Numbered from the stretch's first letter, positions 1,233 through 11,265 are shown. The stretch is 35,238 nucleotides of DNA from a bacterium (GCA_017538365.1 JAFYIZ010000043.1:1-35238); one strand, 5' to 3'. The notes: generated from the letters alone by a model not told the origin. Numbers and translations are program-made.

Positions 1233-4200
1233 ATGCAGGAGCGTCTTGGAATTGACATCGGTTCGACATTCATCACTGTTTTTTCACAAAATAAAAATAA
1301 AGTCGTTTTCCGTTTCAGACACAGCGGAAAAATAGCGGAATCGCTGAAGAAAATTTTTGCGGAGACCGATAGTGACACTTTGGTCCGCTTTACCGGAAAA
1401 ACTGCACAGGAATTTTCCGGAGTCGTCAAAGACCTCTGCATTTCAGAGGCTGAGGCGATAAACGCGGAACTCAAGAAGGAGAAATTTTTTGGCGGCTCAG
1501 ATTTTGCGATAATCAGTATCGGTGCGTCGTCGCTTAAAAAATACACGATAAAATCGGGAACTATCTCAGATATTTCGTCAAATTCGCTCTGTGCTTCGGG
1601 AACGGGACTTTTTCTGGAAGAACAGGCTGAAAGGCTTTCTATCGACCTTGAAAACATGCCTGCTCTGGATATTGCCGAGCCGCCGTCGATTGCGAGCAGA
1701 TGCACGGTTTTCGCAAAAAGCGACCTCATCCACCATCAGCAGGAAGGGCGTACGAAAGATGAAATGTGGGCGGGAATGTGCCGCGCGCTCGTTATTTCTG
1801 CGACGAACACACTTTTCAAAGGGCTTGAGATCAAAGGAAACTTCCTTCTTATCGGCGGAGTCAGCCTGAATAAAGAGGTCGTCCGCTGGTTCAGGACTCT
1901 TTTCCCGACTTCAGAGTGGCTCGTTCCTGAGTTCAGCGAAGCCTTTGTGGCTAAAGGGGCGGCTGAAAGTGCCTGCATAAAAGTAACTGAGATCGATCCA
2001 GACAAATTCTCCCACTCGGCAGCTTTTGAAAAAATGCCGCCTCTCACGCTGAAAAAAAGCAATTACCCGCACTTTATCGAGCCTACGCTTGATGAAGAAA
2101 ACAACGAAATAAGGATCCACAAGGCAAATTACCGCGAAATTCCCGAAGCGATTCTTGGAATGGATATCGGTTCGACTAGCACGAAGATAGCACTTCTTGA
2201 TCTCAAAGGAGAGCCGATACTCGATATTTACAGAAAAACAGGCGGTGACCCGGTAAACTCTGCGAAAAAACTTTTTAAAGCGCTCTATTCGCTCATTGAT
2301 CCTGCAAAAACAACTATCCGCGCGTTCGGAACAACCGGTTCGGGAAGAAAACTTTCGGGCATAATTTTCGGCGCCGACGCGATAATAAACGAGATCACGG
2401 CTCACGCAAAAGGAACTGCTTCGATTTTTCCGGAAGTCGAAACGATATTTGAAATAGGCGGTCAGGACGCAAAATTCATCAGGCTTTCGCACGGTTTTGT
2501 GACAGATGTCAACATGAACTACGTCTGCGCTGCCGGAACAGGCTCATTCGTCGAGGAACAGGCGCGAAAACTCGGGATACCGATAAATCTTGCGGGAAAA
2601 CTCACAGAACACGTAGCACCGCCCGTAACGAGCGACCGCTGCACGGTATTCATGGAGCAGGATATCCGCTCGCTTCTGCAGCAGGGTTTCGACAAAAACG
2701 AAGTTCTCGCCGCAGTCCATTACTCGGTTGTCAAAAACTATCTCAACAGAGTCGTAGGAAACCGCAAGATCAGCAAGGACAAAATATTCTTCCAGGGTGC
2801 TACGGCACGTAACAAAGGGCTTGTCGCGGCTTTTGAAAACCTGTTGAATGTAGAAATGGTGGTTTCTCCGTTCTGTCACGTCATGGGCTGCATCGGCGCG
2901 GCTTTAGTCGCTTTTGAAGAAGTCAAAGCTGAGGGCGAATCAAAAAAATCGGCATTCCGCGGAGCTGAATCGGCAACCATCGAAGTCACTTCGAGGACTG
3001 AGACCTGCAAACTCTGCAGCAATTTCTGCAGAATCAACCACATCTCCGAAAAAGGAGGCAGAGAATCTTCGTGGGGTTACGGCTGCGGCAGAGATCCCGA
3101 AACGCCGGTCAGAAAGGAAATAAAAGAATTCGAGCTCATAAAGCACAGAAACACGTCATTTTTCAAAAACTTCCTCACGGAAAAAGAGCCTATCGGTAAA
3201 GTCGGACTTCCGCTTGCAGTCTCGACCTGGACATTCCTTCCGCTCTGGAAAAAAATGCTCTCGCTTTTGAACATCGAGACTGTCGTTTCGGCACTTTCGA
3301 CAACTCCTGCAATCAAAGGGCTTTCGTCAAAATATTCGGCATCGGACTTCTGTTTTCCTGTCAAAACTTCAATCGGCCACACGCTTGAGCTGACAAACAA
3401 AAATCTTCCCGTTTTCTTCCCGACACTCATTTCGGCAGGCGACAACGTAAAAACGGCGATCAGCTTCTTCTGCCCTTACGTCCAGAGCGATCCATCGATA
3501 ATTTCGACCGTTATGGAAAAGAACGGGCTCGACCCGAAATCGAAGATAATTGACCCTGTCATCGACTTCAGAATGTCGGACGACAAAAACGGCTCGCTCA
3601 TTTTCAAAGCTCTGGAACCATTCTTCCCGACTCTTAAGGAAAAACAGGTGCGAAAAGCGTGGAAAGAGGCGCGCGATTACTACAAAAGCGAGACTACAAG
3701 GCTTATTGAAGAAGGCGAGGCTCTTCTTAAAAACGCGAAAAAAGAGAAAAAACCGGTGTTTCTGCTTGTGGGAAGACCTTACAACCTTTACGACAAAGGA
3801 ATCAACCTCGGAATTCCCGAAACCATCGCCGGAATGGGTTTTGACGTCCTTCCTATCGACATGATGAAGATAAATGTCGGCTCGCTTGCTGACACAAACT
3901 ACTGGAATCTTTTCTGGAATTACGGACAGAAGATAATCGCGGCAATCAAACGGGCGAAAAAAGAGGAAAACGTTTTTCCGATATACCTCACAAACTTCTC
4001 GTGCGGCCCAGACAGCTTCATCCTTTCTTTTGCAGAAAACGAAATGAAAGGGCGTCCTATGCTCATTCTTGAGCTTGACGAACACTCAAGCGACGGCGGA
4101 TACCTCACTCGTATTGAGGCTTTCATCGATGTTGTCAAAGGTTACATGAAAAACAGGCCTGAGCCGACGGAAAGGCCGCTTCCCGACATTTATCTCGCGG

Positions 4201-5354
4201 ATAAAGGACTCAAACCGGGCAAAATCTGGATTCCTCCGATGCACATCGGCACACCGCTTTTTGCCGCTGCATTCCGCGGTTTCGGTTACGATGCCGTGGC
4301 GATTCCGCTTGAGACAAAGCACGATCTCGTCACAGGAAAAAAATATGTCAGAGGTCAGGAGTGTCTTCCGATGATACTCACTCTGGGTTCTTTCTTAAAT
4401 CAGGTCAAAAAAGAGCCCGGAAAACAGCACACGTTTTTCATGCCTTCTTCGGAAGGGCCGTGCAGACTGGGACAGTACAATATGCTTGAGCGCATCGCTT
4501 TCGAGCATCTGGGGCTCGACAACATCGATATTCTGGCGCCTTCCAGCATAAATTCGTATCAGGGAGTCGAGGAACAGCTTCGAAGATACCTGATGCATTC
4601 GGTCATCACGAGCGACGTGCTTATGAAAATGACGACGCGTACCAGACCTTACGAAAAGACGAAAGGCGATGTCGATGCATTCCTCGAGAAAGCCATGAAA
4701 ACTCTTGAATTGGTGTTCGAGCAGAAAAAAAATCCGCTTCCGATAGTTGAACAGCTTGCTGACGAACTTGCAAAAATCCCGCGTTACAACGAGAAGAAGC
4801 CGCTTGTCGGCATCGTCGGCGAAATATACGTCAGAAGCAATGCCTGCGCTAACGGAGACCTCATCCGCGTAATCGAGGAAAACGGCGGCGAGGCTTGGCT
4901 TGCACCTCTTTTCGAGTGGCTCATCTACACAGTCTGGGTTCAGGATTTCATGGCGAAACAGAAAGCGTTCTCCCTTTTCGGAAGAGGCGAATCGCTCATC
5001 AAAAACCTTTACGTTTCGCATATTGACGAGTCATACGGCAAAGCTGCCGACAAAATCCTTTCCGACCGTCACGAGCCTTCGATAAAAGAGACTCTCGACG
5101 AAGGGATGAAGTATCTCCATCCCGAATTTGTAGGGGAGGCGATTCTTACCGTCGGCCGTGCCGTAATGTTTGCAAAACAGGGCGCTTCGATGATCGTCAA
5201 TGTCGCTCCTTTCGGCTGCATGCACGGAACAATTACCGATTCGATCTTCCAGGAAATAAAGAACACTCACAATATTCCGATAGTTTCGCAGTTCTACGAC
5301 GGCGATATCGACATAAACGACAGAGTCGCCAATATCCTAAGAATGAGAAAATAG
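1233..5354 (+). CDS. Two-headed BadF/HgdC-type activase fused to DUF2229/HgdB-like reductase region
   Basis: The start follows GGAGGA and an in-phase MQERLGIDIGST. This 1373-residue protein has two ASKHA ATPase domains (about 4-265 and 302-565) of the BadF/BadG/BcrA/BcrD family. Each has the cluster cysteines of this family (C120 and C157; C432 and C470). The second has the phosphate motif GGQDAK at 409-414, while the first has degenerate IGASSLKKY there. C592, C595 and C599 form a small Cys cluster. The rest is DUF2229 and 2-hydroxyacyl-CoA-dehydratase-like sequence, with C618, C707, C747, C924, C1044, C1077, C1205 and C1329 as candidate ligands. Known relatives couple ATP hydrolysis to low-potential electron transfer onto iron-sulfur dehydratases or double-cubane reductases. 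The substrate is unknown and no separate dehydratase subunits are nearby. The protein is cytoplasmic and probably oxygen-sensitive. A DUF58 gene follows 30 bp later. Confidence 0.88.
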   Translation: MQERLGIDIGSTFITVFSQNKNKVVFRFRHSGKIAESLKKIFAETDSDTLVRFTGKTAQEFSGVVKDLCISEAEAINAELKKEKFFGGSDFAIISIGASSLKKYTIKSGTISDISSNSLCASGTGLFLEEQAERLSIDLENMPALDIAEPPSIASRCTVFAKSDLIHHQQEGRTKDEMWAGMCRALVISATNTLFKGLEIKGNFLLIGGVSLNKEVVRWFRTLFPTSEWLVPEFSEAFVAKGAAESACIKVTEIDPDKFSHSAAFEKMPPLTLKKSNYPHFIEPTLDEENNEIRIHKANYREIPEAILGMDIGSTSTKIALLDLKGEPILDIYRKTGGDPVNSAKKLFKALYSLIDPAKTTIRAFGTTGSGRKLSGIIFGADAIINEITAHAKGTASIFPEVETIFEIGGQDAKFIRLSHGFVTDVNMNYVCAAGTGSFVEEQARKLGIPINLAGKLTEHVAPPVTSDRCTVFMEQDIRSLLQQGFDKNEVLAAVHYSVVKNYLNRVVGNRKISKDKIFFQGATARNKGLVAAFENLLNVEMVVSPFCHVMGCIGAALVAFEEVKAEGESKKSAFRGAESATIEVTSRTETCKLCSNFCRINHISEKGGRESSWGYGCGRDPETPVRKEIKEFELIKHRNTSFFKNFLTEKEPIGKVGLPLAVSTWTFLPLWKKMLSLLNIETVVSALSTTPAIKGLSSKYSASDFCFPVKTSIGHTLELTNKNLPVFFPTLISAGDNVKTAISFFCPYVQSDPSIISTVMEKNGLDPKSKIIDPVIDFRMSDDKNGSLIFKALEPFFPTLKEKQVRKAWKEARDYYKSETTRLIEEGEALLKNAKKEKKPVFLLVGRPYNLYDKGINLGIPETIAGMGFDVLPIDMMKINVGSLADTNYWNLFWNYGQKIIAAIKRAKKEENVFPIYLTNFSCGPDSFILSFAENEMKGRPMLILELDEHSSDGGYLTRIEAFIDVVKGYMKNRPEPTERPLPDIYLADKGLKPGKIWIPPMHIGTPLFAAAFRGFGYDAVAIPLETKHDLVTGKKYVRGQECLPMILTLGSFLNQVKKEPGKQHTFFMPSSEGPCRLGQYNMLERIAFEHLGLDNIDILAPSSINSYQGVEEQLRRYLMHSVITSDVLMKMTTRTRPYEKTKGDVDAFLEKAMKTLELVFEQKKNPLPIVEQLADELAKIPRYNEKKPLVGIVGEIYVRSNACANGDLIRVIEENGGEAWLAPLFEWLIYTVWVQDFMAKQKAFSLFGRGESLIKNLYVSHIDESYGKAADKILSDRHEPSIKETLDEGMKYLHPEFVGEAILTVGRAVMFAKQGASMIVNVAPFGCMHGTITDSIFQEIKNTHNIPIVSQFYDGDIDINDRVANILRMRK

Positions 5355-10256: not shown

Positions 10257-11265
10257 ACAAAACAACTTTCTGATTTTTCAAAATATTTTTGATTAACGGC
10301 TTATAAACTGCACTGTCCGTAATTGTTGTAATTGCACTGACTTTTTTCCCGGCATCTTTTGACGAAGCTCCGCAGTGGTAAATAGTTTCGTTTTTTGTGC
10401 CGAAATCAAGGACGATGTATCTGTCGTGAAAGATTCCGTTCGCCATTTTGAAAGTAACGGTAATGCTTGGATATTCCTTGGAAAAATCATCATATTCCTT
10501 TTGATGCAGACCCTTGCCTTTGTTGTCGGTGAATATCGTGATTTTTACATTTTTCCGCGTTGATTTAAGCAGAACGAGCGTTTTCAAATCAATGTAGTTG
10601 TCAATCACGAAAATCGTCTCTTTAGCTTTGGCGTAAATTTCCTGATATGCGAGATCAGCTTCAACGGGCTTGCCGTTCAAAAACAAAAAATCCTTTTTCA
10701 GTTCCGGATTGGTGAAATCTTCAATTATGTGCGCAATGTCTGCTTTGGTTGCCATATTTTCTTCGATTTTCGATAATTTGTGATCTATCACGGCAATATC
10801 TTTCGTATTTTGTGAAGTCTGAATCGCAAGTTTGGCGACTTCATCATACCCGATCAGATGTTCCCGCTCGAGAATAAAATCTTTCATTCCCTTGAAAAGC
10901 CGGATCAGCATCTTGCTCTGTTGAATTGCCATATCGCCGCGAAGAACAGTCATCAGCATGTAAATTCCCTGTTCTGTGAAGGCGTAAGGAAGATATTTGA
11001 TGTTGCTGCCGCGTCCAGTGTTCAAGGTCAAAAATTTTGACCTTGAACGTAAAAAAGAGACTTTTTCCAATTCTTCCCATGTCAGTTGGAAGCGAAAATC
11101 ATTATCGAATTTGTCAATATTATTCTTTACTTGCTGGTTAAAAGCCTTGACAGAATAACCGTAAATTTCTGCCAGATCGAAGTCAAGCATCACTTGCACT
11201 CCGCGGATCGTGTAAATTTTTGACTTCAAATCCTGTTCGCTGTGAATCACAATTTCATTTTCCAT
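10255..11265 (-). CDS. ORF6N domain protein with PLD-like C-terminal domain
   Basis: The 336-residue product starts at the ATG at 11265 after a weak AAGAGG. Residues about 12-100 form an ORF6N domain, the phage/KilA-N-related DNA-binding fold, with RGVQVMLDFDLAEIYGY and the later AFTEQGIYMLMTVL. A charged helical linker spans about 130-185. The C-terminal part (about 193-330) is phospholipase-D-like: it has IFVIDNYIDLKTLVLL, then H280-x-R282-x4-D287 in place of the canonical HxKx4D, and HCGASSKDAG. The family is common in mobile or accessory regions of gut-type bacteria and has no firm function. Lys-to-Arg in the HKD motif may mean no phosphodiesterase activity. It faces its neighbours in the opposite orientation. 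Confidence 0.85.
   Translation of the reverse strand: MENEIVIHSEQDLKSKIYTIRGVQVMLDFDLAEIYGYSVKAFNQQVKNNIDKFDNDFRFQLTWEELEKVSFLRSRSKFLTLNTGRGSNIKYLPYAFTEQGIYMLMTVLRGDMAIQQSKMLIRLFKGMKDFILEREHLIGYDEVAKLAIQTSQNTKDIAVIDHKLSKIEENMATKADIAHIIEDFTNPELKKDFLFLNGKPVEADLAYQEIYAKAKETIFVIDNYIDLKTLVLLKSTRKNVKITIFTDNKGKGLHQKEYDDFSKEYPSITVTFKMANGIFHDRYIVLDFGTKNETIYHCGASSKDAGKKVSAITTITDSAVYKPLIKNILKNQKVVL

Follow-up and report, generated by a model that had tools for sequence, protein, structure and literature searches.

Archerases are homodimers in which each monomer provides two cysteines to one cluster, and their target in the 2-hydroxyacyl-CoA dehydratases, component D, pairs two homologous subunits as a heterodimer, each with its own [4Fe-4S] cluster; in the catalytic subunit, three cysteines hold it (PMC11574389). 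Among the related enzymes, class I benzoyl-CoA reductase spends one ATP per electron, and the double-cubane cluster has six cysteine ligands in one subunit (PMC11971306). Here, we examined a 35,238-nt stretch of bacterial DNA (GCA_017538365.1, JAFYIZ010000043.1:1-35238; hereafter, the window) containing an ORF of 1373 amino acids at positions 1233–5354 of the plus strand, the strand to which all feature coordinates below refer unless stated otherwise. Its ATG start codon is preceded by a GGAGGAG ribosome-binding site, and no competing frame of comparable length occurs there. From the N-terminus, the encoded protein (1233–5354) consists of two activase heads, a four-cysteine (Cys4) knuckle, and two halves, a and b, that resemble the HGD-D family.

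A search against Pfam showed that the protein matches PF01869 (BcrAD_BadFG) in two stretches (E = 1e-58, 199 bits, cut-off 31.5) and DUF2229 (PF09989; E = 4e-46), and the NCBIfam profile TIGR00241 scored 252 bits (cut-off 125.4). The cut-offs of both activase profiles, PF01869 and TIGR00241, were thus exceeded, as required for an HgdC/BadF-type activase, and the two-head architecture is that of the large-activase family. A reading of this DNA made from the sequence alone had proposed two HgdC-type activase heads on one chain, and Pfam and the alignments agreed that both are of the BadF/HgdC type. Head 1 (aa 1–250; 1233–1982) has the ASKHA fold of BadF/HgdC and a nucleotide site that is degenerate, whereas head 2 (aa 304–566; 2142–2930) is an intact HgdC-type ATPase head by Pfam, alignment, and fold; the linker between them is approximately 55 aa long. 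In comparisons with HadI, MbdQ, HgdC, DCCP-R, and MbdP, the E-values ranged from 1e-35 to 2e-17 for head 2 and from 1e-16 to 6e-5 for head 1. The heads (residues 1–640) and the reductase part were modelled separately with AlphaFold2. In the model of the heads (mean pLDDT 87, pTM 0.77), each had an HgdC-like fold, and the first Foldseek matches were again HadI, MbdQ, HgdC, DCCP-R, and MbdP, with TM-scores of 0.79–0.90 normalized to the target. For two domains of approximately 260 residues each, a pTM of 0.77 suggests that the modelled arrangement of one head against the other is fixed.

In both heads, two cysteines aligned with the cluster cysteines of HgdC, HadI, and MbdP/Q. On the basis of this alignment and of their conservation, C120 (1590–1592) and C157 (1701–1703) of head 1 and C432 (2526–2528) and C470 (2640–2642) of head 2 are the predicted ligands of a bridging cluster; the sequence-only reading had placed all four residues exactly. 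To follow these residues among relatives, we collected 77 related loci by a locus search, 67 of which gave full-length proteins (about 38–95% identical, from many phyla), and took a further 20 loci, including several diverged subfamilies, from genomes of the source phylum. Cysteines were counted in an alignment of 89 rows, the wider set comprised 93 sequences, and the unselected homologue set consisted of the ORF protein and the 67 full-length relatives. The four head cysteines were invariant in the 93 aligned relatives, and in each head they lay in CA(A/S)GTG and (R/T)CTVF motifs in 89/89 rows. Six cysteines of the reductase part (C707, C747, C924, C1044, C1077, and C1329) were likewise conserved in 89/89 rows, and those of the knuckle (C592, C595, C599, and C618) in 87/89. 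The protein has 20 cysteines in total, and the remaining six (C69, C183, C248, C548, C553, and C1205) varied in this alignment. The 14 cluster-type cysteines were kept down to about 26% identity, except for a few losses in the knuckle, and all 14 were present in relatives from Haliovirga, Listeria, and Fusobacterium. Because the cluster-type cysteines are conserved while the other six vary, the pattern is not one of chance. Loss of the head cysteines in close homologues, which would have spoken against the earlier proposal, was found in none of the 89 rows, and the many conserved-looking cysteines that had been noticed behind the heads proved to be conserved indeed.

Several individual sequences deserve mention. 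A relative on a Paraclostridium bifermentans plasmid (L135:4995-8843; 1282 aa), located near ABC transporter, hemerythrin, ferredoxin, and hcp genes, reads IGAQE in head 1; its head and half a cysteines are present, and those of the knuckle and half b have been lost. One homologue (L021:5967-10099) lies in two frames with a break near residue 494, which is probably an assembly or sequencing error. The N-terminal extension of another relative (L067) was considered as a fused partner and rejected, because it is repetitive, lies before the probable start as read-through, and has no Pfam match.

The two heads differ markedly in their nucleotide sites, a point that the sequence-only reading overlooked. 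Alignment of the homologues showed that head 2 carries the phosphate-2 motif IGGQD (aa 408–412; 2454–2468) and that IGASS takes its place in head 1 (aa 96–100; 1518–1532). Among the ORF protein and its 67 nearest full-length relatives, GGQD was found in head 2 of 68/68 and in head 1 of 0/68, with QD absent from head 1 in all 68; we therefore class head 1 as a degenerate homologue rather than a functional activase. Even among relatives of solved structure, the motif is not universal, since MbdP has GGQT. In the wider set of 93 sequences, the head 1 Asp was missing in 79 and present in 14. The 79 sequences without it were variable in the phosphate-1 Ser-Thr of head 1 as well, and all 79 kept D8, G10, the adenosine GG..N motif, and both cysteines in this head, together with the phosphate-1 Ser-Thr, GGQD, and cysteines of head 2. 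Head 1 of the protein studied here accordingly retains D8, G10, G208, G209, N213, and both cluster cysteines. It is also the fastest-diverging part of the protein, with a median identity of 35% to the ORF protein versus 58% for head 2, and its identity was lower than that of head 2 in 78/78 relatives. In a phylogenetic tree of 62 heads, every head 1 fell on one side of a branch (support 98/92), so that a single head duplication suffices, and the head trees placed the single-head activases between the head 1 and head 2 sides. Loss of the head 1 Asp characterized a single clade of 18 rows, which had full support, and the long-branched Paraclostridium protein. The best reading of these motifs is that head 2 would hydrolyse ATP and head 1 would hold the cluster.

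Split forms of the protein bear on how the heads pair. In Monoglobus pectinilyticus (L138:1776-4993), the whole protein is divided among three adjacent genes: half a is a DUF2229 protein, half b is a “2-hydroxyacyl-CoA dehydratase”, and the activase has a single head, which shares 43% identity with head 2 across 259 aa, and the knuckle at its C-terminus. A two-gene form in Fusobacterium encodes head-head-half a followed by half b. Because the Monoglobus activase gene encodes one head, its product must dimerize to form a bridging cluster, and most simply, the fused heads replace that homodimer. We infer that heads 1 and 2 form an internal pseudo-dimer with one [4Fe-4S] cluster held by C120/C157 and C432/C470, a proposal well supported, if indirectly, by the invariant aligned cysteines, the single duplication, the one-head split form, and the structure model. 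The chain might instead form a homodimer, with head 1 pairing with head 2′ or head 2 with head 2′ and the bridging clusters lying between molecules; in characterized HgdC-type activases, the dimer is formed by separate chains (PMC11574389), and the inter-head linker of approximately 55 aa would permit such swapping. However, all sampled lineages with the fused form have retained the two-head unit, and head 1, despite its strong divergence from its ancestor (35% versus 58%), has kept its cysteines, as expected of an obligate partner; the heads were also modelled as a monomer with a pTM of 0.77, and we therefore consider this arrangement unlikely.

Downstream of the heads, the knuckle C592-x2-C595-x3-C599-x18-C618 (3006–3086), conserved in 87/89 rows, joins them to the reductase part, which the sequence-only reading correctly described as fused behind the heads without recognizing that it is a duplicated pseudo-dimer. 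Profile comparison divided it into half a (aa 650–985; 3180–4187), with C707, C747, and C924 and with DUF2229 at aa 656–877, and half b (aa 986–1373; 4188–5351), with C1044, C1077, and C1329. The halves are homologous to one another (hhalign E = 5e-8 over 295 columns), and their cysteines align in pairs (C707/C1044, C747/C1077, and C924/C1329). Half a was related to HGD-D with E = 1.3e-6, the match of half b alone was weak (probability 14%), and as a control, either half compared with the heads gave E = 0.018 or worse. The spacing of the half b cysteines (+33, +252) is exactly that of the three cluster cysteines of BzdO. Pfam found no match to PF06050 (HGD-D) in the 1373-aa protein itself, and the split relatives reached the cut-off of 28.4 (37.5 bits for split half a and 28.4 bits for split half b); we therefore call the halves HGD-D-like and do not file them as HGD-D. 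A sequence search of the PDB with the reductase-part profile returned nothing at E ≤ 1. The AlphaFold2 model of this part (pLDDT 89, pTM 0.87), used for a fold search, gave 12 matches at E ≤ 0.001, all of which were benzoyl-CoA reductase, HadBC, or DCCP chains, with TM-scores to these known enzymes that were moderate, at about 0.5 of the target. As far as can be judged from sequence, the layout of two homologous modules with three cluster-type cysteines each corresponds to component D of 2-hydroxyacyl-CoA dehydratase, an alpha/beta heterodimer.

Identification as a class I benzoyl-CoA reductase was rejected, since the scores on the BcrA/BcrD/BzdQ equivalogue profiles TIGR02259, TIGR02261, and TIGR03192 were all far below cut-off and the catalytic His is missing: Gly1080 occupies the position of BzdO His131 (the third residue after the second cysteine), where the relatives compared have G, T, S, or P.

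The gene stands alone, as had been claimed: its neighbours, DUF58, queA, and a response regulator/HD pair, are housekeeping or regulatory genes, none is conserved across phyla or beyond close relatives, and the context gives no hint of a substrate. The accompanying claim that dehydratase partners are absent was correct for the neighbourhood only, because dehydratase-like modules lie on the same chain, and other contigs of the genome encode a separate activase of 263 aa and an HGD-D protein of 341 aa. Further along the window, an ORF6N-domain gene (10258–11265, minus strand) with a lower G+C content (0.38) lies on the strand opposite to its neighbours and is possibly a mobile insertion. The source genome also carries a paralogue of the same architecture (G000:C11:24325-28482, minus strand; L087), about 30% identical, with GGQD in both heads and without the Cys4 knuckle as a unit, as well as a single-head activase (G000:C40:40284-41111, minus strand) and a three-cysteine HGD-D protein (G000:C36:2795-3781, minus strand); the latter two are on different contigs, with no visible linkage between them. 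DUF2229 proteins, mostly encoded by ORFs of about 1400 aa, occurred in 28/28 sampled genomes of the phylum, at one to several per genome, a distribution that fits a general role better than a catabolic operon. Three genomes of the phylum encode DCCP-like proteins with extra double-cubane cysteines (L110, L111, and L112).

These genome contents also bear on the possibility that the protein activates another enzyme encoded at an unlinked locus, such as the HGD-D protein of contig C36 or a corrinoid protein, and that its halves only relay electrons. DUF2229 does carry the database label “CoA enzyme activase” domain, and an HGD-D gene does exist elsewhere in the genome. However, no HGD-D gene was found in 7/28 genomes of the phylum, some of these seven being incomplete, whereas DUF2229 proteins were found in 28/28; moreover, the genome has a separate single-head activase, and both halves keep all three cluster cysteines, which makes this explanation improbable. 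It is very improbable that the reductase part has the double-cubane [8Fe-9S] cluster of DCCP and BzdN and reduces small molecules like DCCP, a comparison that the sequence-only reading had suggested, because, although DCCP and BzdNO chains are among the fold-search matches and six cysteines are invariant in this part overall, they are distributed three to each homologous half and aligned pairwise, whereas six in one subunit are required (PMC11971306), and the DCCP-like proteins of the phylum do show extra cysteines; a double cubane, and with it identification as DCCP, was rejected on the number and placement of the cysteines.

We consider it likely that the protein is a self-contained, ATP-driven, low-potential reductase, with an activator (a pseudo-dimer with one hydrolytic head) and its component-D-like target on one chain. 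Heads 1 and 2 would fold on each other around the bridging [4Fe-4S] cluster, which would be loaded by a reduced carrier such as ferredoxin. Judging from the motifs, ATP hydrolysis is expected at head 2 only, and head 1 would be a degenerate partner that gives two ligands and probably still binds a nucleotide. Binding and hydrolysis of ATP at head 2 would bend the head pair and fire electrons singly into the reductase part, possibly via the four-cysteine site at residues 592–618. In each HGD-D-like module, three cysteines may ligate a [4Fe-4S] cluster that retains an open coordination site, as in component D (HadBC), and one of the two modules would reduce the substrate. A cost of one ATP for each electron would be expected, because class I benzoyl-CoA reductase, with GGQT in MbdP, spends the same. 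More tentatively, and as a serious possibility, we propose that in the asymmetric clade, a symmetric two-ATP dimer has become one hydrolytic head and a dead head kept only for its two ligands; each ATP would send one electron by a continuous route within the molecule into a pseudo-heterodimer resembling component D, and the protein would serve a core function in whole uncultured lineages.

To our knowledge, the characterized archerase systems are multi-chain, with components that meet transiently. A single chain would fix both stoichiometry and path, and coupling and the ATP spent per electron would therefore be directly measurable. The half-dead variant and the paralogue with both heads intact in the same genome offer a ready test of one versus two ATP sites, and the three-gene form of Monoglobus would be useful as a separable system. 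The DUF2229 family, present in all 28 genomes of the phylum, also extends to many other phyla and to cultured species such as Listeria. The literature searched contained no functional study or characterized member of the family, and the fusion may be discussed in papers outside it.

Compared with the known systems, the protein shares with 2-hydroxyacyl-CoA dehydratase (HgdC/HadI with HgdAB/HadBC) the two bridging cysteines per head and the two three-cysteine HGD-D-like modules; it differs in consisting of one chain, in the absence of GGQD from head 1, in the extra Cys4 knuckle, and in the very low sequence identity of its reductase part. Like class I benzoyl-CoA reductase (BzdNOPQ and MbdONPQ), it combines one ATPase pair with one catalytic pair; both also show asymmetry between the two ATPases, in a milder form in benzoyl-CoA reductase (GGQT in MbdP versus GGQD in MbdQ), and half b shares the BzdO cysteine spacing. 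Unlike that enzyme, it shows neither the six-cysteine double cubane of BzdN nor the catalytic His131 of BzdO (here Gly1080), and it is one chain instead of four. DCCP/DCCP-R likewise pairs an HgdC-type ATPase head with an HGD-D fold, but in DCCP, a homodimer, each subunit has six cluster cysteines. The layout is shared by the large proteins annotated in RefSeq as “acyl-CoA dehydratase activase” or “2-hydroxyacyl-CoA dehydratase” (Listeria, Fusobacterium, Haliovirga, and Collinsella), which have two heads, DUF2229, and a C-terminal module, so that the single-chain layout was already known by annotation; in the three that were aligned (Haliovirga, Listeria, and Fusobacterium), however, the head 1 Asp is kept (GGED or GGQD). 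The present analysis adds the reading of the heads as a half-dead pseudo-dimer, the recognition of the reductase part as a duplicated three-cysteine module, and the correspondence with the split genes.
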